64,000 bases of DNA from a virus: the IMG/VR virus record IMGVR_UViG_3300032050_000029, positions 57,979-121,978 of that record; one strand, 5' to 3'. Shown in pieces: positions 1,704-44,705 of the stretch. The position numbers were made by a program, and so were the translations under genes. The first letter of the stretch is position 1. Each line of letters starts with the position of its first letter. The notes beneath the pieces are model-generated. The model saw nothing but the letters and a program-made list of their open reading frames with translations. It ran no database searches and was not told the origin of the DNA.

Positions 1704-2009
1704 TTACTTTGTTTTGAATTCTTGTTTTGCTTTACTCTTCTCTTTTTTACCTGGAGGTACTCTATGGTAATTTTGAGTTGACCAAGGATCATCTTCCTGA
1801 CATTGACAATCGTCTTTATGTTCACTGCATCGTGGGCAATAATCAGATTTATCGTCTAAGTAATCTTGTGCATCCTTTTCGGTCTTTTTATCTGATTCAT
1901 TATCAGTTTCAATGTCCTCAATATGCTTAGCTGCCTTATGTCTAGTTTGGTCTAATTCCTCAGATAGAAATCTAGCAAAAAAAGTCTCGAATGTCTGAAT
2001 ATGTTTCAT
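1704..2009 (-). CDS. Small acidic protein with capsid-targeting-like leader
   Basis: A 101-residue protein beginning MKHIQTFETFFARFLSEE. The first eight residues are identical to those of the next gene upstream (2017-2850). In T4, leaders of this form (MKTYQEFIAEA) direct internal proteins into the prohead and are cut by gp21 after L/I-x-E; here LSE at residues 15-17 would be the site. The rest is acidic and contains a C-x2-C...C-x-C set (YCPRCSEHKDDCQC) that could bind zinc, then a Lys-rich tail. Role unknown; a packaged internal head protein is inferred. Confidence 0.6.
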   Translation of the reverse strand: MKHIQTFETFFARFLSEELDQTRHKAAKHIEDIETDNESDKKTEKDAQDYLDDKSDYCPRCSEHKDDCQCQEDDPWSTQNYHRVPPGKKEKSKAKQEFKTK

Positions 2010-2016
2010 ATTACGT

Positions 2017-2850
2017 TTACTTTTTTACTACCAATGCGGCATCTCCAGGTTCTACACCACCATATTTAAGATTTTTGGCTGAATAGTCTGTGTTGTATTC
2101 TGGAGTAGATGTTTTAGCAGGATCTTCGATCCACACAATTACCACACCGTCTTTATATGCGCATGCTTTCAATACTCCCCAAGTTTCTTCCTTTACAGGG
2201 CTCTCTTTTCTGTATTGGTCTCTAACAGCGTCAATTGCAGTGTTGTCATCGGGTCCGTGCTTAAGGTATTTAGTAACCTTGGCACCAACCACAGATTCAA
2301 TAAAACTTGCAAGTTCTCTTACAACATCACCTCTCCCACTTACATAATCATTCACAAGTCGGTCAGCAAAAGCTCTTACAGAAGAAGCAGGACCTGGTTG
2401 TACAGGTATCAGTTCAGGTGTGTAAGAATCGTAAAGTTTATCTAGCAATGCAATTGTCTTGTTGATTGCTGCAACTGCTTCAGATTCATTTGATACTTGC
2501 ATTACAAGAGGATGAGAGTATCTAAACTTAACAAGCTTGAACCCTATACCTTCCATTGCCCTTTCGAACTCTTTGAGGAAAGACGCGTCAATCTTTCCGC
2601 TCTTATCTCCGCGTTTCCAGTTAGTCAAATTCCGAATTGCTTTGTCTATTTCGGGAGATCTCAAGAAGCTGTCTTTGTCGCGAATGTCGGCAAAATCTTG
2701 TTTATCCGAAGGAGCTACTGCAGCTTCCAGGCTGTGGCCTCCTCCGTATTGTTGTCTCAAATTGATCTGAAGGAAGTATGGTCCTCCAGACACTGCTTCA
2801 TTTAATATGCTTTCATTTAAGAAGCTCTCGAATGTTTGTATGTGTTTCAT
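2017..2850 (-). CDS. Putative internal head protein with capsid-targeting-like leader
   Basis: A 277-residue protein starting MKHIQTFESFLNESILNEA, with two possible prohead-protease sites (LNE/S at 11-13 and LNE/A at 16-18). The mature part has no recognised domain. It is a mixed alpha/beta sequence with a C-terminal region (WGVLKACAYKDGVVIVWIED) that reads like a compact beta domain. A late-type promoter motif lies 15 bases upstream of the start, so late expression with other virion genes is likely even though its upstream neighbour belongs to an early-type operon. Packaging in the capsid is inferred from the leader only. Confidence 0.6.
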   Translation of the reverse strand: MKHIQTFESFLNESILNEAVSGGPYFLQINLRQQYGGGHSLEAAVAPSDKQDFADIRDKDSFLRSPEIDKAIRNLTNWKRGDKSGKIDASFLKEFERAMEGIGFKLVKFRYSHPLVMQVSNESEAVAAINKTIALLDKLYDSYTPELIPVQPGPASSVRAFADRLVNDYVSGRGDVVRELASFIESVVGAKVTKYLKHGPDDNTAIDAVRDQYRKESPVKEETWGVLKACAYKDGVVIVWIEDPAKTSTPEYNTDYSAKNLKYGGVEPGDAALVVKK

Positions 2851-5320: not shown

Positions 5321-6271
5321 CTACTTTTTTACAGAAAATCTTTTCTTATCGCGTTCCAGTGTTCTTTCAATCATTTCCTTTGAGTATTCGTCTAGTTTTT
5401 GAAGAGATTTTTCATCTAGGGGTTTACCATAGAAGTCTTCATATACTTTCTTATAGATTTCAACTGTGCTATCGAAAGGTACACCGGGCTGGGCATTTGA
5501 CTCAATAACATAGATCTTACCTTCTTTATCCTTCATCATATCAAAACAGATGTAAGGAAACTTTTCAAATATTTTGCAGTATTTTTCTAAAACCTTTTTA
5601 TAGTCTTCTGGAATATTATCAACATTTCTCTTAGCATAATTAAATTCCATTTCCTCATCGGTCTTACCATCACCAGATTTTGCCTTACTGTTTGCAGGTG
5701 TTCTTTCCATCCAAAAAATAGGTTGACCTTTAAAGTTAAAGAATCTCATTTCCTCTACCTTATCTACATATTCAGAAAAAGTGTCAAATATCTTTTCATC
5801 AAGTTCTTCCATTAATTCAGGCTTCTTAATAACCTGAATTCCAATACCGCTATGACCATTTGCAGGCTTTGCAATGATAGGAAAGTTTAATTTCTCTAAA
5901 GCCTCGTTTTTTGAGTAAACGGTCTTAGGTACATTTTCATCTTCACCTACAAGTTTATGAAACTCTTTCTTTGATCCAGATAGTGGAATATACTTAGGAT
6001 GATTATAGATGTTTTCCTCTTTAATCAATTTTCTTTTTAGTAATTCATCAACTATAGTACTATGATAATTAAGTACAGGGTACTCAGGATTAATGTCTAA
6101 CTTATCAATATTATTTTCGGTAACCTGAATAAAAAACTTATCACCGGCAAAACCTTTATAAGACCACCATCTCTGTCCACTATCTCGGCGGGTGGCTAAA
6201 TATACTTTCTTTAATCCGTTATCTTCAACGGCTTCATTTAAGAACTCTTCAAAAAGTTTGACATACTTCAT
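5321..6271 (-). CDS. ATP-grasp ligase with capsid-targeting-like leader
   Basis: A 316-residue protein. Residues 1-14 (MKYVKLFEEFLNEA) form the capsid-targeting-type leader with a predicted cut LNE/A at 13. The rest is an ATP-grasp fold: a lysine plus glycine-rich loop at 134-147 (AKPANGHSGIGIQV) and a metal/ATP region at 240-262 (YICFDMMKD, then VIESNAQPG). Relatives ligate an amino acid or other carboxylate to a peptide, protein or small molecule; the substrate here is unknown. The ATG at 6271 is preferred over an upstream one because only it puts the leader at the N-terminus and it follows a late-type promoter motif by 14 bases. If the leader works as in T4, the enzyme travels inside the capsid. 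Confidence 0.8.
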   Translation of the reverse strand: MKYVKLFEEFLNEAVEDNGLKKVYLATRRDSGQRWWSYKGFAGDKFFIQVTENNIDKLDINPEYPVLNYHSTIVDELLKRKLIKEENIYNHPKYIPLSGSKKEFHKLVGEDENVPKTVYSKNEALEKLNFPIIAKPANGHSGIGIQVIKKPELMEELDEKIFDTFSEYVDKVEEMRFFNFKGQPIFWMERTPANSKAKSGDGKTDEEMEFNYAKRNVDNIPEDYKKVLEKYCKIFEKFPYICFDMMKDKEGKIYVIESNAQPGVPFDSTVEIYKKVYEDFYGKPLDEKSLQKLDEYSKEMIERTLERDKKRFSVKK

Positions 6272-12822: not shown

Positions 12823-12826
12823 GAGC

Positions 12827-12910
12827 GGAAGGTGAGGGGATCGAACCCTCGCGCCGTTGCCGACCTAACAGTTTAGCAAACTGCCCCCTTCACCACTTGG
12901 GTAACCTTCC
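12827..12910 (-). tRNA. tRNA-Ser(GCU)
   Basis: Cloverleaf with GGAAGGT acceptor, long variable arm and GGTTCGATCCC T arm; anticodon GCT in loop TTGCTAA. Last tRNA of the array, placed after the RNase H-like gene. Confidence 0.93.
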
Positions 12911-12911
12911 T

Positions 12912-13361
12912 TTATCTACAGCAATAATCAGCTGCACGAGTTGCAATTTGCTCGTTAGGTTTTACATTTACTTTATAGCCCAGAGAATTTGCCCACCCTT
13001 TAGCCGCAGAAATAATTCTATATGATTTGTGTTCTTCATCTCCGTTATAGTCCATATCAATTTGAACCTTAACATTAATCTGTTGTGTAAGCCATTCAGC
13101 GGTTTCAATACTCATCTCGGCTTCTTTCCAAAGACGTGTCCACATATCAGTGATCTTTGGCATTTTATGTTTAGTAAAAATATAATGTACACCTGATGAT
13201 CCAAAGCGATATGCTATCACTGTGCTATACATAGTTACATCACCATGATTTTGTGAATCGGTTCCAATGTGAATCGATGCATGAGGATAATTCTTTAACT
13301 GCTCGAGGGTGTGATCTATCACATTAACCTTGACTCCATTTGTCTTTCTAAACACCTTCAT
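12912..13361 (-). CDS. RNase H-like fold protein (DUF458/YkuK-like)
   Basis: A 149-residue protein starting MKVFRKTNGVKV. It shows the YkuK-type layout: a first strand with Asp (ASIHIGTDSQNHGD, about 29-42), strand pairs (MYSTVIAYRFG), then VKVQIDMDYNGDEEHKS (second acidic cluster) and a C-terminal RIISAAKGWANSLGYKVNVKP that supplies a final residue. These match an RNase H-like nuclease fold; the substrate is unknown. It lies inside the tRNA array, its stop one base from tRNA-Ser(GCU), so it is cotranscribed with the tRNAs, and RNA processing or turnover is an attractive guess. Confidence 0.7.
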   Translation of the reverse strand: MKVFRKTNGVKVNVIDHTLEQLKNYPHASIHIGTDSQNHGDVTMYSTVIAYRFGSSGVHYIFTKHKMPKITDMWTRLWKEAEMSIETAEWLTQQINVKVQIDMDYNGDEEHKSYRIISAAKGWANSLGYKVNVKPNEQIATRAADYCCR

Positions 13362-13378
13362 TCATTTTATGTATTTCG

Positions 13379-13451
13379 CACGCCTGGATGGGTTCGAACC
13401 ACCGACACCTGGTTTTGGAGACCAGTGCTCTACCAACTGAGCTACAGACGC
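13379..13451 (-). tRNA. tRNA-Trp(CCA)
   Basis: Acceptor GCGTCTG pairs with CAGGCGT using several G-U pairs; anticodon loop CTCCAAA; T loop TTCGAAC. Confidence 0.92.
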
Positions 13452-13459
13452 ATTTATTG

Positions 13460-13530
13460 AGGCACCAACAGGAATCGAACCTGTGTGAAAGGTTTTGCAG
13501 ACCTCCACCTAACCACTCGGCCATAGTGCC
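13460..13530 (-). tRNA. tRNA-Cys(GCA)
   Basis: Acceptor GGCACTA/TGGTGCC with U73, the usual discriminator of tRNA-Cys; anticodon loop CTGCAAA. Confidence 0.93.
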
Positions 13531-13536
13531 ATTATG

Positions 13537-13611
13537 GGTGATTAATGGGAGTCGAACCCACGACCTTCTGAACCACAATCAGATGCTCTAACCAACTGAG
13601 CTATAACCACC
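13537..13611 (-). tRNA. tRNA-His(GUG)
   Basis: Anticodon loop TTGTGGT. An encoded G at -1 faces C73, the identity pair of histidine tRNAs. Confidence 0.93.
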
Positions 13612-13616
13612 ATGTG

Positions 13617-13690
13617 TTGGAATAGGCAGACTCGAACTGCCGACCCTTCGCGTATCAGACGAATGCTCTAACCAACTGAGCTATATTCCA
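13617..13690 (-). tRNA. tRNA-Ile(GAU)
   Basis: Anticodon loop CTGATAC, acceptor TGGAATA/TATTCCA, T loop TTCGAGT. Confidence 0.93.
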
Positions 13691-13695
13691 ATGTC

Positions 13696-13713
13696 ACAGG
13701 ACCCGCACCCTGT
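13696..13713 (-). ncRNA. Structured spacer A in tRNA array
   Basis: The 58-base gap between tRNA-Ile and tRNA-Asn contains the hairpin ACAGG/CCTGT marked here and a second one (GAAC/GTTC). No tRNA model fits. Confidence 0.3.
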
Positions 13714-13748
13714 TCTGAACTTGTACTTTGTTCTATTAAGCGTTTTTG

Positions 13749-13820
13749 CTCCCCGGGGGAATTACGATATCCCGACCCCATGATTAACAGTCATGTGCTC
13801 TGCCTCTGAGCTACCGAGGA
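13749..13820 (-). tRNA. tRNA-Asn(GUU)
   Basis: Anticodon loop CTGTTAA, acceptor TCCTCGG/CCGGGGA. The T loop reads ATCGTAA instead of the usual TTCRANY, so it is slightly atypical. Confidence 0.88.
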
Positions 13821-13821
13821 A

Positions 13822-13903
13822 TAAAAGTAATAAGCAGAGGCTTTGGGTTAGACACGCCCTAATATTACATAGGAGACCCCTTAGATGCTTACCTATTACT
13901 TAG
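13822..13903 (-). ncRNA. Structured spacer B in tRNA array
   Basis: About 82 bases between tRNA-Asn and tRNA-Phe. The ends are complementary (AAGTAATA with TATTACTT), and TAAGCA/TGCTTA and GGGTTAGAC-type pairs lie inside. Looks like an independent folded RNA rather than random spacer; not a tRNA. Confidence 0.35.
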
Positions 13904-13976
13904 TGGTGATGGACGGAATCGAACCGCCGACACAAGGATTTTCAGTCCTTTGCTCTACCAACTGAGCTACATCACC
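13904..13976 (-). tRNA. tRNA-Phe(GAA)
   Basis: Anticodon loop CTGAAAA, acceptor GGTGATG/CATCACC. Confidence 0.94.
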
Positions 13977-13981
13977 ATTAG

Positions 13982-14054
13982 TAGTCAATAAAGGACTCGA
14001 ACCCTTATCTCTTGATCCGTAGTCAAGTGTTCTATCCAATTGAACTAATCGACT
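13982..14054 (-). tRNA. tRNA-Arg(ACG)
   Basis: Anticodon loop CTACGGA, acceptor AGTCGAT/ATTGACT. The A34 should be deaminated to inosine by the host to read CGN codons. Confidence 0.93.
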
Positions 14055-14059
14055 AAATG

Positions 14060-14133
14060 TGGACCTTGCAGGGCTCGAACCTGCGACCTGCGGATTATGA
14101 GTCCGATGCTCTAACCAACTGAGCTAAAGGTCC
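14060..14133 (-). tRNA. tRNA-Met(CAU), elongator, or tRNA-Ile2 with modified CAU
   Basis: Anticodon loop CTCATAA in a stem with one mismatch at its base; acceptor GGACCTT/AAGGTCC. A CAU anticodon may be elongator Met or, after lysidine modification, Ile reading AUA; identity elements alone do not settle it here. It is not the initiator, which is at 15012. Confidence 0.88.
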
Positions 14134-14139
14134 AAATGT

Positions 14140-14220
14140 TGGAAGGGACGGATTCGAACCGCCGTACTCCGAAGAGAGCAGATTTACAGTCTGCCGGTTT
14201 TAACCACTCACCCACCTTCC
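14140..14220 (-). tRNA. tRNA-Tyr(GUA)
   Basis: Anticodon loop CTGTAAA with a long variable arm, as in bacterial class II tRNA-Tyr; acceptor GGAAGGT/CCCTTCC. Confidence 0.93.
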
Positions 14221-14221
14221 A

Positions 14222-14345
14222 ATAAAAGAGAGACTTCGGGTCTTTCGGGCATTCTGTGATATAATCAACACATCTGAATCTCCTAATGCCTTTTTGACAG
14301 TCAGCGGGATTAAGACCATATCATACAGCTTCACTATCTCTCTTG
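14222..14345 (-). ncRNA. Structured spacer C in tRNA array
   Basis: About 124 bases between tRNA-Tyr and tRNA-Val. An 8-base terminal stem AAGAGAGA/TCTCTCTT closes the element, with GAC/CGAA-type hairpins inside. Largest structured spacer of the array; not a tRNA. Confidence 0.35.
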
Positions 14346-14346
14346 G

Positions 14347-14418
14347 TGCACCCTGATGGTTTCGAACCACCGACCCTCTGCATGTAAGGCAGATGCTCTC
14401 CCACTGAGCTAAGGGTGC
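14347..14418 (-). tRNA. tRNA-Val(UAC)
   Basis: Anticodon loop CTTACAT, acceptor GCACCCT/AGGGTGC, T loop TTCGAAA. Confidence 0.93.
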
Positions 14419-14423
14419 ATTAG

Positions 14424-14504
14424 TACCGAAGAAGGGACTCGAACCCTTAAGCCGTTAGGCACTGGTTCCTAAGACCAGCGTGTATACCATTCCACCACTT
14501 CGGC
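14424..14504 (-). tRNA. tRNA-Leu(UAG)
   Basis: Anticodon loop CTTAGGA, long variable arm (TGCCTAACGGC), acceptor GCCGAAG/CTTCGGT. Confidence 0.93.
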
Positions 14505-14507
14505 AAG

Positions 14508-14604
14508 TTGTAGGATATCGCTTAACCTACTGTGATTGCGCCTTTCACATTTACATCTTATAGCTACATCCTAAACGGGAAAACTATGATGTACGATTTT
14601 TTTG
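14508..14604 (-). ncRNA. Structured spacer D in tRNA array
   Basis: About 100 bases between tRNA-Leu and tRNA-Lys. TAGGAT and ATCCTA near its ends can pair, enclosing a GATGTA/TACATC-type inner region. Not a tRNA. Confidence 0.3.
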
Positions 14605-14677
14605 TGATCCCGGCGCGGCTCGAACGCGCGGCCCATACATTAAAAGTGTATTGCTCTACCAACTGAGCTACGAGATC
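14605..14677 (-). tRNA. tRNA-Lys(UUU)
   Basis: Anticodon loop CTTTTAA, acceptor GATCTCG/CGGGATC. Confidence 0.93.
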
Positions 14678-14681
14678 TTAG

Positions 14682-14755
14682 TGGAGGTAGAGGGATTCGA
14701 ACCCACGACCCTCTGCGTGCAAGGCAGATGCTCTAGCCAACTGAGCTATACCCCC
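14682..14755 (-). tRNA. tRNA-Ala(UGC)
   Basis: Anticodon loop CTTGCAC, acceptor GGGGGTA/TACCTCC with the G3-U70 pair that marks alanine tRNAs. Confidence 0.93.
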
Positions 14756-14756
14756 A

Positions 14757-14828
14757 AAGTGTAGGTAGCCTTCCTACTGTGTAACCGTACGTGTTACTTT
14801 AGGTTATGCATTAACCTCGGCATTTTTT
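14757..14828 (-). ncRNA. Structured spacer E in tRNA array (three consecutive hairpins)
   Basis: About 72 bases between tRNA-Ala and tRNA-Asp. Three perfect hairpins follow each other: AGGTTA/TAACCT with a 5-base loop, GTAAC/GTTAC with a 7-base loop, and GTAGG/CCTAC with a 7-base loop. The arm sizes recall a tRNA, but there is no clear acceptor stem, no T-loop consensus and no readable anticodon arm, so it may be a decayed tRNA or a different RNA. Confidence 0.35.
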
Positions 14829-14830
14829 GG

Positions 14831-14904
14831 CGGCCCGTACGGGACTCGAACCCGTGACCTTCGCCGTGACAGGGCGACATTGTAACCATCTCTACTAACG
14901 AGCC
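14831..14904 (-). tRNA. tRNA-Asp(GUC)
   Basis: Anticodon loop CTGTCAC, acceptor GGCTCGT/ACGGGCC with G73, as expected for Asp. The D arm is somewhat irregular. Confidence 0.92.
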
Positions 14905-14907
14905 AAT

Positions 14908-15008
14908 AAGAGGGTGGCGAAAGATTTGCGATCCTTCATTTCTACTTCTGAATATGCTGATTAAGTCGACTTCACAGCAGGAATTTCATTTTCGTCTAGA
15001 TACCACCT
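14908..15008 (-). ncRNA. Structured spacer F in tRNA array
   Basis: About 100 bases between tRNA-Asp and the initiator-like tRNA. GGTGG/CCACC closes the element, TGCTG/CAGCA and AAGTC/GACTT form a central arm, and AAGGA/TCTTT encloses a 7-base loop near the 3' end, where a T arm would be. No usable anticodon arm, so not called as a tRNA. Confidence 0.35.
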
Positions 15009-15011
15009 TTG

Positions 15012-15086
15012 TTGCGGGGATGGGAATCGAACCCATGTGGTTCGGCTTATGAGACCGAGCTGGAACCATCTCCAGTCCACCCCGCA
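15012..15086 (-). tRNA. tRNA-Met(CAU), initiator-like
   Basis: Starts TGCGGGGTGGA as initiator tRNAs do, with a weak first pair (U1-A72 where E. coli has C1xA72), anticodon loop CTCATAA in a G-rich stem, and CCCCGCAA at the 3' end. The D arm is longer than usual. Confidence 0.85.
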
Positions 15087-15092
15087 ATGTTG

Positions 15093-15166
15093 TAGTCCGT
15101 ACGGGGATCGAACCCGTAAGCTTCTCCGTGAAAGGGAGATGTCCTAACCAATTAGACGAACGGACC
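15093..15166 (-). tRNA. tRNA-Glu(UUC)
   Basis: Anticodon loop CTTTCAC, acceptor GGTCCGT/ACGGACT, D arm TCGTCTAATTGG. Confidence 0.93.
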
Positions 15167-15178
15167 AAATAATGTTTG

Positions 15179-15251
15179 AGCCTCCGATAGGATTCGAACC
15201 TACGACCCACTGATTACAAATCAGTAGCTCTACCAACTGAGCTACAGAGGC
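15179..15251 (-). tRNA. tRNA-Thr(UGU)
   Basis: Anticodon loop TTTGTAA, acceptor GCCTCTG/CGGAGGC. Confidence 0.93.
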
Positions 15252-15253
15252 AA

Positions 15254-15315
15254 AATACAGGATACGTTTTGGCTTCAAAGTTGCAGTTTGATAAAATTTG
15301 CTGTATGTATCCTTG
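15254..15315 (-). ncRNA. Structured spacer G in tRNA array (family with 15946-16003)
   Basis: A 62-base gap element between tRNA-Thr and tRNA-Pro closed by GGATAC/GTATCC and containing ACATACAGCAA. It matches spacer H in its ends and in the TACAGCAA segment, and the closing stem shows a compensating A-U to G-C change between the two copies. Confidence 0.45.
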
Positions 15316-15388
15316 TAGGGAAGACAGGGCTCGAACCTGCGACCCCCTGGTCCCAAACCAGGTGCGCTACCAACTGCGCTACTTCCCT
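15316..15388 (-). tRNA. tRNA-Pro(UGG)
   Basis: Anticodon loop TTTGGGA, acceptor AGGGAAG/CTTCCCT, D arm GCGCAGTTGGTAGCGC. Confidence 0.93.
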
Positions 15389-15393
15389 ATATG

Positions 15394-15464
15394 TTGCCCC
15401 CAAAGGATTCGAACCTCTACACTGTGGACCAAAACCACATGTCCTGCCATTAGACGAGAGGGCA
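15394..15464 (-). tRNA. tRNA-Gln(UUG)
   Basis: Anticodon loop TTTTGGT, acceptor TGCCCTC/GGGGGCA with the weak U1-A72 pair typical of glutamine tRNAs. Confidence 0.93.
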
Positions 15465-15472
15465 ATTTAAAG

Positions 15473-15558
15473 CGGAAAGAGAGGGATTCGAACCCCCGAT
15501 ACCTCGCGGTATGCCGGTTTTCAAGACCGGTGTAATCAACCAACTCTACCATCTTTCC
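15473..15558 (-). tRNA. tRNA-Ser(UGA)
   Basis: Anticodon loop CTTGAAA, long variable arm, acceptor GGAAAGA/TCTTTCC with G73. First tRNA after the promoter and boxA at 15569-15637. Confidence 0.93.
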
Positions 15559-15568
15559 GTTGGTACCT

Positions 15569-15585
15569 CAATATGTCAAAGAACG
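15569..15585 (-). promoter_or_regulatory. boxA-like antitermination element before the main tRNA array
   Basis: CGTTCTTTGACATATTG on the minus strand, 11 bases before tRNA-Ser(UGA). It matches the rRNA boxA consensus (YGCTCTTTRACA) and the GTTCTTTGACATATTG form found ahead of 16S rRNA in Bacteroidota. A near copy precedes the tmRNA at 16387-16403. Confidence 0.6.
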
Positions 15586-15606
15586 AATTTGAAATTCTAT
15601 TCTAAA

Positions 15607-15637
15607 CAAATATAACTCATTCAATCTTTTTCTGAAA
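15607..15637 (-). promoter_or_regulatory. Early promoter of the main tRNA array, TTTCA-N18-TATATTTG
   Basis: TTTCA (15637-15633), 18 bases, TATATTTG (15614-15607). It lies between the terminator at 15650-15683 and the boxA element, so it can drive the 20 tRNAs to its left as a separate unit. Confidence 0.7.
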
Positions 15638-15649
15638 GAGACCCATAAA

Positions 15650-15683
15650 AAAAGCCTCCCGGAATTTTTTATCCAGGAGGCTT
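15650..15683 (-). terminator. Rho-independent terminator inside the stable-RNA region
   Basis: On the minus strand GCCTCC...GGAGGC closes a hairpin followed by TTTTTTT. It should end the tmRNA/tRNA-Gly/31-residue ORF transcript before the main tRNA promoter. Confidence 0.8.
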
Positions 15684-15706
15684 AGTATTATAAGTGTTTT
15701 ATCTTA

Positions 15707-15802
15707 TCAGCTCCTGCCTGGACTTGGTGTAATTGAATCCGCCTGCGGAAAATTCTTTTCCACATTACTAAGAATCCAATATGTACATCCGTGCAGTTGC
15801 AT
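15707..15802 (-). CDS. 31-residue small ORF with its own late-type promoter
   Basis: The 309-base gap between tRNA-Gly and tRNA-Ser(UGA) holds this ORF, starting MQLHGCTYWILSNVEKN and ending SPGRS. It has an A-rich leader, a TATATAAATA motif 18 bases upstream, and ends 24 bases before the terminator at 15650-15683. This promoter-ORF-terminator layout suggests a real short transcript; whether the peptide or the RNA is the product cannot be told. Confidence 0.4.
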   Translation of the reverse strand: MQLHGCTYWILSNVEKNFPQADSITPSPGRS

Positions 15803-15820
15803 TGAAATTGTTTTATTTGT

Positions 15821-15832
15821 TATTTATATATA
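15821..15832 (-). promoter_or_regulatory. Late-type promoter motif TATATAAATA (31-residue ORF)
   Basis: GTATATATAAATA on the minus strand, containing the full T4 late consensus TATAAATA, 18 bases before the small ORF. Confidence 0.5.
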
Positions 15833-15868
15833 CTCACATTGTGTTTGTTTCACATGTGTGAGAATTTG

Positions 15869-15941
<73 letters not shown>

Positions 15942-15945
15942 AGAA

Positions 15946-16003
15946 ACAGGATGCATTGGGTTGTAGTTTACAAGTCTAGTCCAAAGTTGCTGTATGCATC
16001 CTT
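15946..16003 (-). ncRNA. Structured spacer H between tmRNA and tRNA-Gly
   Basis: Closed by a 9-base stem AGGATGCAT/ATGCATCCT, with CATACAGCAAC inside. Sister of spacer G at 15254-15315. It may be a processing signal or a small RNA. Confidence 0.45.
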
Positions 16004-16005
16004 TT

Positions 16006-16387
16006 TGGTGGAGGTGATGGGATTCGAACCCATGTCCGACTAAGGAACCTAAATCCCTCATTCACAAGCTTAGGCCATTTTTCTTAATGGCCAAAATAAA
16101 TGGTTCCTATTTTGACATCGTTACCAATAACTATGTCGAGTTCACTTATAAGGTAGTACTCTGAACGAGACCTTGAATTCTCATTCTTTTTAATATCTCA
16201 CGATGAGTGCGAGACTGATTAGGCTGCTACAGCGTAATCAGCACCAATGAAAGCCATTGCGTCTTCCCAGGTGAATGAAGATTTCTCTTCGCCTTTTATT
16301 GTGCGATAGGTGTTTAAGGGTTTCCATCTAACCCTGCTTGCATCAGTAACCTAATTTCAGCTTAATCGTCAAAACCTGGTCACCCCC
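16006..16387 (-). ncRNA. ssrA: tmRNA (ssrA)
   Basis: A one-piece tmRNA of about 380 bases. The 5' end GGGGGTG pairs with CACCTCC at the 3' end, followed by A and an encoded CCA; the T arm is CATGGGTTCGAATCCCATC. Between them lie pseudoknot-like stretches and a tag frame (16293-16219) that starts GEEKSSF and ends MAFIGADYAVAA-stop, the typical AA-ending degradation tag. The G-E start resembles Bacteroidota tags, but at about 24 residues it is longer. It rescues stalled ribosomes together with host SmpB. It is preceded by a TATATAAATA motif and boxA. Confidence 0.92.
16219..16293 (-). other. tmRNA tag-peptide reading frame
   Basis: Within the tmRNA, GGC (16293-16291) is the most plausible resume codon. 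The frame reads 24 residues to TAA at 16221-16219 and ends ADYAVAA. The exact resume codon is inferred from the Gly-Glu start of related tags; the C-terminal half of the tag is secure. Confidence 0.7.
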
Positions 16388-37954: not shown

Positions 37955-38431
37955 TCTTCTAATATGTGTGATAAACTCCCTTTGTTCACCTTTTAGAAGA
38001 GATTTACAGTGTTTAGTAAAGTTAACAGATGAATCTATTACTCGTTGATCAACCCTTTTATTCCGTGAGTTATGAGCCTCAGAACATTTGCTACATACAA
38101 AGTTTTCAATCTTCTTTGAATCCATTCTTGCCTTAATCTCTACAGAACAGATTGCACAGTTCCAGTCTATAACATTTGAGTCTGATTCTACTTCCTTTAT
38201 TGTGGTAAAGGTTTCTCTAAAGGGATTCCAAAGAATCTTATTAGGATTCTTTTCATGGTCATTCATATCCTCAACCTTAAAAATGATTTCATATGTTTGC
38301 GGGTCTGGATCTAACCACTTAAGGTAGTCATTCTCTGCCATAAATCGTTGCTTTGAAGGCGGCAGGTTCTCCAAAAGAATACCATGCCGCCTTCTATACC
38401 ATCCAAAGTTTATTTTACGAACTTTATACAT
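37940..38431 (-). CDS. Zinc-ribbon protein of unknown function
   Basis: A 163-residue protein with two Cys pairs (WNCAICSVEI and FVCSKCSEAHNSRN, residues about 93-120) that should bind one zinc ion; the SRNKRVDQRVIDSS part resembles His-Asn nuclease-like or zinc-knuckle linkers but no catalytic set is complete. N-terminal half is charged and aromatic. It overlaps the upstream gene by 8 bases. Nucleic-acid binding is inferred. Confidence 0.6.
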   Translation of the reverse strand: MYKVRKINFGWYRRRHGILLENLPPSKQRFMAENDYLKWLDPDPQTYEIIFKVEDMNDHEKNPNKILWNPFRETFTTIKEVESDSNVIDWNCAICSVEIKARMDSKKIENFVCSKCSEAHNSRNKRVDQRVIDSSVNFTKHCKSLLKGEQREFITHIRRSFKS

Positions 38432-39581
38432 TTACATTTTTACTTAATCTTCTAAATTTATCAGTAAAAGATTCACCAATATAACCAGCAGATTCATTTT
38501 TACCTGCCTTCTTATCTTTAAGATCCTTTAGTTTATTTTCTTCTGGTTCAAGAGCCTTTGCTAAAACTTCAGGACTTGCAAGAGGACTATTTTTATCCTT
38601 TGCTTTATTCTTAATTGCAGCTATCTTATCTTCCTGATCTGCTATTTCTTTATCAAGAGGATCCTCCTCGGTTGCAACAGCAGCCTTTAGATCATCCTGT
38701 GCAACATTAAGAGCAGATTGTGCAGCGGCAATGTCATCAGAATTACCTCCTAATTTTGCTTTTTCTAATTCTTCTGCTTTAATCTGTCTTTCAATAGCTA
38801 AAACATCAGGGTGTTTTTTAGATCCAAGCGAATCTTCTTTAGACTGTTTATCTGCCTTTAATTTATTGATCTTAGAATCTATAACGTTTATCTTTTCAGT
38901 ATTATCCTCGCCTTCGGGCTTAGTCTCTCCTTCGGGCTTAGTCTCAGCTGCAGGTTTATTATCCTTTACTTTAGGCATTTCTTGCTGCTGTGGTTGCTCT
39001 TGAGCCTGTGGTTCTTCTGCTTTAGGTTCTTCGGCCTTTTCATAATCCTTAATATCTTGCTCTGCCTTAGCAGCTTGTGCATTAAGTTTCTTTATTTGGA
39101 TCTTAAGTTGTTTAGTTTCTTCGGCATCAGCAGCTTTAAGAGCAGTTTCAGCAGCGGCAACTTTAGCCTTTGACATAGCAAGAGATTTAACGGCCTGTAA
39201 ACCTGGACTCGTTGCAAGAGTAGTCATACGGTCAGAAATAGCGCTGGCCTTATCGGTAAGTGCCTGGTTCTTTGCAGCATTAGCCTGTCTAAGAACCTCC
39301 TTTTTATCTGCATCTACTTCTCCACCAGATGCCTGTATTTTCTTTTCATAGTCTACATTATTAAGAGCCTTTTGTACCAATGCTTGTTGGTACTTCTTTG
39401 CATTGTTCTTAATCTTTAAAAATTTAACAGGATTTTGAAAAAGGGCACCTGCTCTAGTTTGTGCAGGTTTAGGCGCAGCTTCATTAATAGCCTGTTCAAC
39501 CACGCGGTCAAGATGAGCCTCTAATCTAGTCTCAGCTTCCTTAATTATTCTAAAATGTTCAAAATTGACAAGTTCTTTCAT
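38424..39581 (-). CDS. Coiled-coil internal head/scaffold-type protein with capsid-targeting-like leader
   Basis: A 385-residue protein beginning MKELVNFEHFRIIKEAE, a leader related to those at 1704, 2017 and 5321, with a possible cut IKE/A at 13-15. The bulk is Lys/Glu/Ala-rich coiled coil with a Pro/Glu/Gln linker (EEPKAEEPQAQEQPQQQE) in the middle. The C-terminus (YIGESFTDKFRRLSKNVNV) is ordered. The composition and the place after capsid genes fit a prohead core component (T4 gp22, gp67 or IP proteins). Late motif 21 bases upstream. Confidence 0.6.
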   Translation of the reverse strand: MKELVNFEHFRIIKEAETRLEAHLDRVVEQAINEAAPKPAQTRAGALFQNPVKFLKIKNNAKKYQQALVQKALNNVDYEKKIQASGGEVDADKKEVLRQANAAKNQALTDKASAISDRMTTLATSPGLQAVKSLAMSKAKVAAAETALKAADAEETKQLKIQIKKLNAQAAKAEQDIKDYEKAEEPKAEEPQAQEQPQQQEMPKVKDNKPAAETKPEGETKPEGEDNTEKINVIDSKINKLKADKQSKEDSLGSKKHPDVLAIERQIKAEELEKAKLGGNSDDIAAAQSALNVAQDDLKAAVATEEDPLDKEIADQEDKIAAIKNKAKDKNSPLASPEVLAKALEPEENKLKDLKDKKAGKNESAGYIGESFTDKFRRLSKNVNV

Positions 39582-41175: not shown

Positions 41176-42891
41176 TTAGATAATATCAACTCCGTTGAAG
41201 TTGAAGTTCAATACATAGTACATAGTTTGTGGGTGGAATCCAGCGTCTACTAAGTCGAATCTAGATTTAACCGCGATTTTAGGAGCCATAGTTCCTTCTG
41301 CGATTGTCTCAACAGATTCAGCCATTAAGTAAGGCATGAATACTAAACCAGGAGAGTTACCATCACCTTTACGACCTACAGCGATCTTAACATCGTTAAA
41401 GTCTCTGTTTGGATCTACATAAACAGTAACACCTGCGATAGCTCCGATTGGGTAAAGAGAACCACCAGCTTGGTTAACTGTGTTAGAAAGAGGATAAGCA
41501 ACGAATCCAGCGATGTCCTGAAGAGCAGATGCCATCTTACCGCCAGTTACAGCGAAAGTAGCAGGTCCTCTACGGCCACGAGTAGCGATCAAGTTAGAAG
41601 CAGCAAGAACCTTAGTAAGGATTCTACGTTGCAATGTACCTTGAGTTTCGCCACCACCACCAACTGATACAGAAGTAACAGTTACAGAGCGGTTAACGCC
41701 AGTATTGTCAGTTCCAAGAGGAATAGTAACAGCACCGGTAGCACCAGTAGTAAATGCAGCTGAAAGAACAGTAGCGTCTACTTGAGATACTTGGTAAGCG
41801 TTAGTTACGCCATTCTTGAAGATTCTATCCAAGATATACTTGTTGATAGATTGAGTTAATTCATTAACCAATACAGCTTCTACTTGAGCAACTGCATCGA
41901 TACCGAATTGCTTAAGATCTTGTACTTGTTCGCGAGTTACAGCGGCAGCAACTTGATAAGTTTTAGCGGCAACTGATTTGTTGAACAATGATAGACCCAT
42001 GATGTTATCTGGAGTAGATTCTCCATCTCCTCTTTGATAAGGATCAGTACTGTTAATAGATTCAGCGAAAGAAGGAACACCTGTAGCAGGGTTGTTCTCA
42101 GCGAATGCATTACCAGAGAAACCAACGATGTGGTCTTCTAAAGCTTTAACTAATTCAGGAGCTCCGTCAAAGTTAACACGAACTACAGTTAGAGGATCAT
42201 CAGAATAACCATCAGTAGCTGCAGTGATTGCAGTATAGATTGGCTGATAACCTTCTTCACCTTGTGCAAAAGGATCAGCACCTTGAGCTTGGTCAGTTCC
42301 TTTACCTCTTACGCGGAAAATAGGATAACCATCGATACGAGACTTACCAACGAAAGTTAATTCGTATGCACCGAAGCTACCAGTACCAACGTAAAGAAGA
42401 TCGTTAACTGCTAAGTCACCACCAGTAGCGATAGTTAAAGGAACTTTGATCATTAAAGGAGCAGAGTTACCGTTAATACCACCAGCAGTAGTTACACGAC
42501 CACCACCATATACAAAGTCTAGGTAAGTAAGAACTCCCATAGGACCTTGCATAGGAACTACAGGTACAAGATCAAGACCTACAGTCTGAGCAGCTACTTG
42601 CATAGCAAGTGGCAACAAAGAGAATGGTCTATCACCAGAACCTGGGGCCTGAGAATAGAAAGCGTTCAATGTAGTAGGATCTCCAGGGAAAGTAGGAGCG
42701 CCCATTGATTGAACGTTCATGTTTGGATTGAGGTGTACAGTATTGTAAACACTTTCATTAAGGTTATGGTAATGGCAATACTTAGACATCCAAGATAACT
42801 TAGACTTCTCAGTGATACCAGTAGCCTCCTCAATGATAGGTGCCCACGTCTTTTGTACTTCAGCCTCATTAATTAAATGATTTGCGTACAT
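41176..42891 (-). CDS. 23: Major capsid protein (gp23-like)
   Basis: A 571-residue HK97-fold protein of the gp23 type. The N-terminal delta domain is cut in T4; possible sites here are INE/A at residue 9 and LNE/S at 46 (HNLNESVYN). The P-domain phrases TYQVAAAVTREQVQDLKQFGIDAVAQVEAVLVNELTQSINKYIL and FVAYPLSNTVNQAGGSLYPIGAIAGVTVYVDPN follow the family. It forms the hexamers of the head, with folding probably helped by the GroES-like protein. GC content is visibly higher than the neighbours, usual for a highly expressed gene. It ends at a strong terminator. Confidence 0.93.
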   Translation of the reverse strand: MYANHLINEAEVQKTWAPIIEEATGITEKSKLSWMSKYCHYHNLNESVYNTVHLNPNMNVQSMGAPTFPGDPTTLNAFYSQAPGSGDRPFSLLPLAMQVAAQTVGLDLVPVVPMQGPMGVLTYLDFVYGGGRVTTAGGINGNSAPLMIKVPLTIATGGDLAVNDLLYVGTGSFGAYELTFVGKSRIDGYPIFRVRGKGTDQAQGADPFAQGEEGYQPIYTAITAATDGYSDDPLTVVRVNFDGAPELVKALEDHIVGFSGNAFAENNPATGVPSFAESINSTDPYQRGDGESTPDNIMGLSLFNKSVAAKTYQVAAAVTREQVQDLKQFGIDAVAQVEAVLVNELTQSINKYILDRIFKNGVTNAYQVSQVDATVLSAAFTTGATGAVTIPLGTDNTGVNRSVTVTSVSVGGGGETQGTLQRRILTKVLAASNLIATRGRRGPATFAVTGGKMASALQDIAGFVAYPLSNTVNQAGGSLYPIGAIAGVTVYVDPNRDFNDVKIAVGRKGDGNSPGLVFMPYLMAESVETIAEGTMAPKIAVKSRFDLVDAGFHPQTMYYVLNFNFNGVDII

Positions 42892-42966
42892 TTTGTTTTT
42901 TGTTTTTTTATTTGTTTTTATTAATCAATCTGTAGCTCTTTGCTTCTTAGCTATTAGATTATATTT

Positions 42967-42976
42967 TTTATATATT
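42967..42976 (-). promoter_or_regulatory. Late-type promoter AATATATAAA (major capsid)
   Basis: ATAATATATAAAAAA on the minus strand, 75 bases before the capsid start, giving a much longer leader than other late genes. The leader is A-rich before the ATG. Confidence 0.55.
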
Positions 42977-44705
42977 ATCGTCCTAAGTTGAATTTTACTC
43001 TATTAACTAGGTCATTAGCAAAAGATTCATTTACTAAAGGCTCCTTAGGTGCAGCGGCCTCAGCAGCTGTTTTACTTTCATTAATTTGTTCTAATTCCAT
43101 TTGAGATGGTCTTAGATCTCTGGTTCCCCAGAAGTTATTAATGGCGTAAGGAGTAGTTAAGGTATAGAACTTAGATTCTGCAATAATTTGATTCTTACGA
43201 GATTCTGATAAAGCTTCCCATTTAGCAGAGAATTTCTCAGGCATATCAGCAATAAAATTCAATTCTCTCTTCTTTTCAATAAATGAAGATTCCCATATAT
43301 TTTCAGCCTGAACAGTTGACATAATTGGTTTAGCATTCATTGATTCAACAATCATTTTCTGCTTTTCTTCAGAAAGTGAATTAAATTCATTTTTCTTAGA
43401 TTCAGAAAGGAAGTTCATAAAATGCATTTCAGTAACAACCTTAGTTTTGGCTTCAGCCTTTGCAATTAATTTATTTAAGGCTTCTTCTATTGAATCTTTA
43501 TATTCTTTCTTATCGGATTCTTTTTCTTCATTCTTAGATCCACAAGATCCTTCATGAACTTCACCGCATTTTTCACAAGTAGCTTCTTCAGATACTTCGG
43601 ATTCATTAATAGCAGAACCTTCAACCGTGTTTACATTTTCTGCAATGTATTCAGCATATTTAATACTCTTTCTTAAACCTTCAGCAAGGTGTTCAGAGTA
43701 TGCAATGTTTTGATCAACCTTTTCAGCAACATATTCGGAATACTCAATTCCTTTTTCAAGGTTCTCTCCTAAATAGTTTGCATATTGAATTCCCTTATCA
43801 GCTTTTTCAGCAACATGTTCAGCATATTGAATTGAGTTATCCAATTCTTCAGCAAGGTATGTCGTATAATTCTTAATCTTATCTACATTTTCAGCTAGAT
43901 AGTCAGAATAAGAAATACTCTTATCAAGGTTTTCAGAAAGATACTCGGCATAATCGCTTAACTGATTTACCTTTTCTCCAATATGTTCACTGTACTTAAT
44001 AAGTTTTTCAACGATTTCAGTATTGTCTGAATTTGCGGATTCTTTTACATTATTTAATACGCCTTGAACATATTCGGTGTATTTTTGAAAATCCTCAACG
44101 GTTACAAAATTTTGATTTTCCATTGTTGGTTCTTTTTTATCTTCTGTATTTTTAGTTTCTTCCATTTCATAAATGAATAAAGTAGGGTCGGCATCAAATC
44201 CGTAAGATTCGTTAACCCTTGATAATTCTGCATTTTCAAATCCAGGATCTGCAACTAGGTCATATGTAAAAAACTTCTTAATCTTTACTTTACCGTTTTC
44301 ATCAACAGTTCCAGCGGCACGACTTGAAATATGAAGAGGAATACCGTCCTTAATTAAAGCCTGTGCTTCTTTACCCTTTGTAGTATTTAATAAACGAACT
44401 CTTCCAACAACTTGTTTGTTTTCGGAATCGTACTTTAAAGATTCTATTACATGGGATACGTTAGAGAGACTAATATCAAAATCTTTTGGGTGGTCTAATT
44501 CACCTAAAAGTTTGTTTGTCTTTACCTTTTCTTGGAGTTCATTAATATGAGGTAAAACTTCCTTTTCCTCATAAATTCTGTTATTCTTATTACGAACACC
44601 GAACTCAGTAAAAACGCCTTCTAATACGACGGCGCCATCATCATCTGTCTTAAATGATAAATTAGACTGTGATCTCTCAAGAATTAATAGTTTTTTTCCT
44701 GACAT
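42975..44705 (-). CDS. 21-like: Prohead protease fused to scaffold-like repeat region (gp21/gp22-type)
   Basis: A 576-residue protein. Residues 1-175 match the prohead protease family of gp21: LEGVFTEFGVRNKNNRIYEE, LGELDHPKDFDISLSNVSHVIESL (catalytic His region) and PLHISSRAAGTV (catalytic Ser region). Residues about 205-365 hold ten 14-residue repeats of the form YxxYxxExxxxxxx. Then comes a CEKCGEVHEGSCG cluster and a helical C-terminal 170 residues. In T4 protease (gp21) and scaffold (gp22) are separate genes. Many L-x-E sites in the repeats suggest self-cleavage into small core peptides. Confidence 0.8.
   Translation of the reverse strand: MSGKKLLILERSQSNLSFKTDDDGAVVLEGVFTEFGVRNKNNRIYEEKEVLPHINELQEKVKTNKLLGELDHPKDFDISLSNVSHVIESLKYDSENKQVVGRVRLLNTTKGKEAQALIKDGIPLHISSRAAGTVDENGKVKIKKFFTYDLVADPGFENAELSRVNESYGFDADPTLFIYEMEETKNTEDKKEPTMENQNFVTVEDFQKYTEYVQGVLNNVKESANSDNTEIVEKLIKYSEHIGEKVNQLSDYAEYLSENLDKSISYSDYLAENVDKIKNYTTYLAEELDNSIQYAEHVAEKADKGIQYANYLGENLEKGIEYSEYVAEKVDQNIAYSEHLAEGLRKSIKYAEYIAENVNTVEGSAINESEVSEEATCEKCGEVHEGSCGSKNEEKESDKKEYKDSIEEALNKLIAKAEAKTKVVTEMHFMNFLSESKKNEFNSLSEEKQKMIVESMNAKPIMSTVQAENIWESSFIEKKRELNFIADMPEKFSAKWEALSESRKNQIIAESKFYTLTTPYAINNFWGTRDLRPSQMELEQINESKTAAEAAAPKEPLVNESFANDLVNRVKFNLGR
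43607..44090 (-). repeat. Tandem 14-codon repeats in protease-scaffold gene
   Basis: Ten consecutive 42-base units, coding YAEYLSENLDKSIS, YSDYLAENVDKIKN and variants. The pitch of two heptads fits a long coiled coil, and the L/V-x-E at positions 5-7 recurs in most units. Confidence 0.75.

Follow-up and report, generated by a model that had tools for sequence, protein, structure and literature searches.

The gene under study occupies positions 5321..6271 on the minus strand of the window, by which we mean the whole 64,000-nucleotide stretch that was analysed, itself taken from a virus record of 121,978 bases (G000:57979-121978). The reading frame runs from an ATG at 6271 to a stop codon at 5321-5323 and encodes a 316-residue ATP-grasp protein beginning MKYVKLFEEFLNEAVEDNGLKK; its translation, viral relatives and a dN/dS of ~0.03-0.04 against near relatives, indicative of purifying selection, support its status as a gene. 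A 333-residue reading from a GTG (to 6322) was rejected as mechanical, the ATG at 6271 being the start kept in relatives. The frame does contain both motifs that an earlier note had quoted from it: residues 134-144 read AKPANGHSGIG and residues 255-263 VIESNAQPG. In the clade of the window the gene adjoins an apparent thymidylate synthase gene, with nucleotide kinases nearby, and lies away from the head genes, a position that speaks, if only mildly, against a dedicated role late in infection; in the contig G009 it is flanked by other leader genes. No partner hinting at a substrate was found among the families of neighbouring genes, and a search for late promoters upstream of leader genes (TATAAATA-like motifs and k-mer enrichment) was uninformative.

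Judging from its gene content, the source is a large uncultured T4-like myovirus with a gp23-type major capsid protein and an S77 head protease. The capsid protein gene (41176..42891, minus strand; Pfam PF07068, 4.8e-28) encodes a product that shares 56% identity with its counterpart in the uncultured phage LR756500 (462 kb) and 36-38% with those of Lak megaphages. The head maturation protease (42975..44705, minus strand; Peptidase_S77, Pfam PF03420 2.2e-14, PHROG 207 7.7e-38) is fused to a scaffold-like region and is the predicted cutter of the leaders described below. N-termini of the capsid protein, compared among relatives, carry LINE/A and HNLNE/S (a slash marks the predicted cut), and in the capsid proteins of the clade these are the same type of site as in the leaders. 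The window also contains, at 12825-16387, a cluster of 22 tRNA genes together with a tmRNA that encodes its own tag peptide.

The ATP-grasp protein starts with a 13-residue leader, MKYVKLFEEFLNE (6233..6271, minus strand), which is kept across the family, resembles the leaders of T4 IPII and IPIII and has a predicted cut after Glu13. The predicted protease site in MKYVKLFEEFLNE/A, LNE/A, fits the pattern [LI]xE followed by a small residue. In the T4 record, IPII and IPIII begin MKTYQEFIAE/A, and IPI begins MKTFKEFTST...ITE/A. When the leader is aligned to that of T4, F7xxF10 falls on Y4xxF7, Leu11 on Ile8 and Glu13 on Glu10. According to the account of the T4 leader in PMC9026906, residues 4 and 7 serve chiefly for targeting and residues 8 and 10 for processing, and an Asp at position 10 stops processing but leaves targeting intact. 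From this agreement in both targeting and cleavage residues, the leader is, by sequence, of the T4 capsid-targeting type. The hypothetical 54-residue protein gp61.1 of T4 itself (NC_000866:18966-19130) also starts with a stretch, MKTFKEFIKE, that resembles the T4 capsid-targeting sequence.

An aromatic-x-x-aromatic motif in the first 13 residues was found in 37 of 39 representatives of the family, against 13% of neighbouring proteins, and the full leader motif with Glu in 28 of 39 against 73 of 1,260 neighbours (odds ratio 41; p ~2e-24, which is only indicative because the test ignores relatedness among loci). Many of these 73 neighbours are themselves clear leader proteins, and one of the 39 representatives (L010) was counted with a leader start corrected from the DNA. 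The full motif is missing in the remaining 11: the close relatives L007 and L095 have FEEFSND, with Asp replacing Glu, the leader of L009 ends in KDG, and L122, L152 and L163 are only half leader-like. By analogy, the proteins of L007 and L095 would be packaged yet uncut, their SND endings being compatible with the behaviour of T4 leaders with Asp at position 10.

Behind the leader lies the ATP-grasp core. The ATP-binding Lys135 and the glycine loop AKPANGHSGIGI (residues 134-145; 5837..5872, minus strand) are conserved in a 39-member alignment and align with the KP..GSS.G loop of D-Ala-D-Ala ligases, while the predicted metal-binding region from Asp244 through VIESNAQPG (Asp244, Glu257 and Asn259; 5483..5542, minus strand) aligns with their D...E.N residues. 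Seven residues are invariant across the alignment (K101, K135, E174, R176, R190, D244 and E257) and conservation reaches 90% or more at S141, G142 and G144. N259 is mostly conserved and not invariant, being N in the window clade and S in some members. K101 would be the second ATP-binding lysine, a role suggested by its position only.

The AlphaFold2 (AF2) model, built with 39 family members, has a pLDDT of 89.6 and a pTM of 0.86, with the leader as a detached low-confidence helix. Its comparison with the PDB gave 631 matches at E <= 0.001, carboxylate-amine ligases among them at E ~1e-13, so that the fold of a nucleotide site is predicted. The nearest structures by Foldseek were LysX/ArgX, DdlB, synapsin, PsnB and RimK, with TM ~0.5-0.6; most of these nearest folds are carboxylate-amine or peptide ligases, and several act on proteins or peptides. 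Taken together, the model and the alignment contain the fold, two lysines, the glycine loop and the D/E/N metal ligands (N in the window clade) that mark the ATP-grasp superfamily. Given the fold, the invariant residues and the low dN/dS, the enzyme is probably active, and a ligase chemistry would follow from fold and residues.

The enzyme does not fit cleanly into any named ATP-grasp family, and among the near folds, too, no one family is a close match. Pfam gave only partial matches to the window protein, to YheC/D, the Ddl C-terminal domain, sugar-transfer, RimK and TTL families. The YheC/D-like match (PF14398) reaches 28.8 against a cut-off of 26.8 bits and covers only profile positions 181-246 of 255; that to the Ddl C-terminal domain (PF07478) passes with 26.9 against 24 bits, its best stretch being only residues 119-159. 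D-Ala-D-Ala ligase was rejected, the Ddl N-terminal domain having no match. RimK (PF08443) was also rejected, at 17.6 bits against a cut-off of 21, as was the R2K clade (PF14243, PF18299), for which the window protein scored 16 bits with R2K_3 against 26.3; R2K profiles have matches at E <= 0.01 in 14-15 of the 39 family members.

By profile search the family was found at a minimum of 78 viral loci, and a search for cellular relatives, whose operon context was sought among 84,980 species genomes, returned a single weak match. On this census the leader-bearing ATP-grasp family is phage-restricted and almost absent from cells. Among annotated phage records, only the uncultured LR756500 has a full-length match to the window protein, and no cultured phage with the family was found in the phage collection searched, for which three divergent members and an adjacent paralogue from G010 served as further queries. 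The bodies of divergent members are ~30% identical. In G010 two ATP-grasp genes are adjacent (G010:41838-42833 and 42869-43798) and have near-identical leaders (MIIKDFQTFLNE, MKIKDFQTFINE).

The leader is not confined to the ATP-grasp enzyme. Leader scans of the window identified three further minus-strand genes for leader-bearing proteins: one in the head gene module (38424..39581; MKELVNFEHFRIIKE/A), whose orthologues in other contigs also carry leaders, for example MRKVKSYDEFVNE/N and MAKLKTYSEFVNE/G, and two others at 2017..2850 (MKHIQTFESFLNE/SILNE/A) and 1704..2009 (MKHIQTFETFFARFLSEE). Among 19 contigs with a relative of the ATP-grasp gene, an S77 protease is encoded by 12 and a gp23 capsid protein by 13, and most of those without them are short. 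We counted leader-like N-termini per contig and compared them with 200 shuffles of the N-termini. The counts exceeded the shuffles in G001 (11 against a shuffled mean of 1.35, maximum 6), G009 (23 against a mean of 1.0, maximum 4), G003 (10 against 0.94, maximum 3), W01 (28 against 6.6, maximum 14), G011 (20 against 3.25, maximum 9), G013 (16 against 2.6, maximum 8) and G012 (15 against 3.2, maximum 9), and were not clearly above them in G010, G014, G015, G016 and G021. Counts did not rise above background in Sphingomonas phage PAU or Tenacibaculum phage PTm1, and the strategy is therefore not universal among phages with a gp23-type capsid.

A stricter pattern gave 7 to 22 leaders per contig, 95 in total over seven contigs. 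The residue after Glu, which the pattern does not constrain, is A, G or S at 53 of the 95 sites, compared with a background of 19.6% for these proteins (p = 6e-15), and similarity of leaders within a phage is 0.41, against a permutation maximum of 0.29, homologous proteins being included in both tests. Leaders thus differ as dialects from phage to phage, such as MKHI.TFE.FLNE/G in G009 and MKYI.EYEEFLLE/A in W01. When tried on T4, the pattern found IPII and IPIII together with chance or unproven matches, and in its strict form missed IPI and Alt; a match at 114210 was rejected as merely an internal Met of uvsW. The earlier proposal of a capsid-targeting leader joined to an intact ATP-grasp enzyme is borne out in both its parts: the leader persists across a family of ~30% identity, leader counts exceed shuffles in seven contigs and a matching protease is encoded, while the enzyme keeps its core residues under strong purifying selection. 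The comparison of structures that the same note had called for gave a predicted nucleotide-site fold, ligase matches in the PDB and RimK among the near folds.

Several other leader proteins were observed in passing. One of 492 residues (G000:43914-45392) has a weak, sub-threshold match to Gig2-like proteins, which are related to ADP-ribosyltransferases, and is possibly an Alt-like packaged enzyme. Others resemble cytidylyltransferases (G009:17802-18380), DUF2201 metallopeptidase/VWA proteins (W01:200318-201793) and leucine-rich repeats (W01:198758-199531), and an AAA-like protein also belongs to the set. A leader protein of ~420-440 residues with ILEGG near its N-terminus recurs at G010:114092, G012:29871, G013:45033, G014:75930 and W01:267941. 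At G009:30900-32628 six consecutive small genes start with near-identical leader DNA (ATGAAACACAT...), repeats through which recombination could more easily exchange the cargo that follows the leader.

At least 15 relatives have, between leader and enzyme, a conserved module of ~85 residues (GAPDWHDSDAPDAEGRFKDLS...), and L100, L126, L127, L128 and L132 have further segments beyond it, forming chains of 472-562 residues in which the enzyme is the last domain. The same module makes up a stand-alone leader protein (G000:42597-42899), is also present in G011 and G013, and is fused to different partner proteins. Predicted cut sites lie at the junctions of the chains (DLLKE/S, SILNE/G, VIYE/S, GFNE/S and GISE/S); in L128 they follow residues 102, 167 and 230, within or bordering on segments of pLDDT <50 (98-128, 159-167 and 216-231). 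Site-like motifs also occur inside enzyme bodies, at ~0.3 per 100 residues and once at the metal site (VIE/SN), so that the presence of a motif is by itself no proof of cutting. Overall, the chains look like processed multi-domain packaged cargo. They carry either of two diverged enzyme lineages, and the enzyme therefore seems to have been exchanged behind a constant leader and module.

We consider it probable, from the sequence, the model and the analogy with T4, that the gene product is a head-packaged ATP-grasp ligase that is trimmed of its leader, delivered with the DNA and active in the new host. The leader, the protease, the capsid type and the conservation of the gene are established at the level of sequence, and docking, cutting and injection would follow by analogy. 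During assembly the 13-residue leader would dock the enzyme on the prohead core, as the leaders of T4 internal proteins do, and the S77 head protease of the phage would cut after LNE. The freed enzyme would then stay among the packaged DNA and enter the next host with it, where it would activate a carboxylate at the expense of ATP and join it to an amine. Arriving with the DNA, such an enzyme could be at work before expression of any phage gene begins. As predictions, packaging and injection are well supported.

The earlier note's interpretation of the protein is supported in part, less so in what it would modify. As a class of target, a protein of the host or a small molecule connected with defence would be likeliest. 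The near folds LysX, RimK and PsnB are compatible with the addition of amino acids to host proteins, as the earlier note had supposed, and just as much with a product that is a peptide or a small molecule. That host ribosomal or polymerase proteins are the specific targets is a guess from the fold class, and a peptide, metabolite or defence signal would be no less plausible.

Might the protein instead be an ordinary early enzyme, made in the infected cell and never packaged, its leader being incidental? The apparent thymidylate synthase gene and the nucleotide kinase genes near it in the window clade, the loss of the cleavage Glu in several relatives and the leaderless ATP-grasp enzymes of other phages, such as the PA11 group, would all suit such a role. 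However, even very divergent members retain the leader, few neighbouring genes have one, and it resembles other leaders of the same genome; we regard this explanation as unlikely. Similarly unlikely, in our judgement, is a packaged protein that works in head assembly or is a passive, DNA-associated filler rather than acting in the new host. ATP is present during assembly, many different leader proteins would be packaged, and T4 core proteins are likewise cut by the head protease in the description given in PMC5694885; against this, the active-site residues and strong purifying selection point to catalysis, and the tagged proteins of T4 (IPs and Alt) are described as dispensable for assembly and ejected into the host (PMC5694885, PMC9026906). 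It is very improbable that the leader directs the protein to a destination different from the head core, such as a membrane or a phage compartment inside the cell: even if a short helix does not by itself reveal what it binds, this one matches the T4 capsid-targeting sequence position by position, protease-type residues follow the Glu, a leader protein is encoded in the head module and cut sites are predicted between domains.

The packaged and injected ligase that we favour has its closest parallel in T4. Like IPI, IPII, IPIII and Alt, the window protein has a short N-terminal leader with predicted removal by the head protease after [LI]xE, and in both phages the leader is common to several unrelated proteins. 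In T4 one of these is a host-modifying enzyme, Alt being the classic example of an enzyme that is leader-tagged and injected. The enzyme here is an ATP-grasp ligase where Alt is an ADP-ribosyltransferase, and leaders are more numerous (~7-22 in the contigs examined), some of them on multi-domain chains.

Among the ligases, the protein shares its fold with LysX/ArgX, RimK and PsnB (best PDB matches 5k2m, E 1.9e-13; 3vpb, TM 0.56; 4iwx, TM 0.55; and PsnB, 7dro/7drm), but at 12-16% identity, TM ~0.5-0.6 and with the Pfam RimK score below cut-off. DdlB is the best PDB match by sequence (profile E 4e-8), over the ATP-grasp half and with the D...E.N metal residues in common, but its N-terminal domain has no counterpart match, and the window family is restricted to phages. 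Phage RimK-like proteins (PHROG 2599, Pseudomonas phage PA11 group) show weak homology to 22 of the 39 members (best 2.8e-14), which in the phages examined begins past the leader region, in the PA11 group only at residue 61-62. Both these proteins and the R2K ligases of jumbo phages are ATP-grasp ligases from phages, as is the present family, and have been annotated or predicted to modify proteins; the R2K ligases were proposed to modify host proteins and are presented without a packaging tag in PMC7824862.

The multi-domain chains recall the polyvalent proteins of phages and conjugative elements, which PMC5512222 describes as multi-domain, thought to be packaged and injected, and equipped with protein-modifying domains. 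In that account ATP-grasp is mentioned for RNA ligases, and no leader-tagged ATP-grasp amide ligase was found. Leader-tagged internal proteins and injected ADP-ribosyltransferases are covered in the accessible portions of the open-access literature (T4-head and jumbo-phage reviews, PMC5512222), where a leader-tagged ATP-grasp enzyme was not found. By this comparison a protein tagged in the T4 manner is known in kind, and the ATP-grasp class of enzyme would be new to it.

A wider reading is more tentative, and we hold it to be possible rather than probable: that injected ATP-grasp ligases form a widespread family, carried as single or protease-processed multi-domain cargo and modifying a host protein or a defence molecule at entry, among ~7 to 22 leader-tagged cargoes per phage whose own dialect is read by the phage's own head core. 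If this is true, large T4-like phages bear a sizeable injected arsenal that could be catalogued purely from sequence, and amide ligation would be added to ADP-ribosylation as a chemistry delivered with the genome. The leader would also provide a short, testable tag for assigning proteins of huge phages to the interior of the virion.
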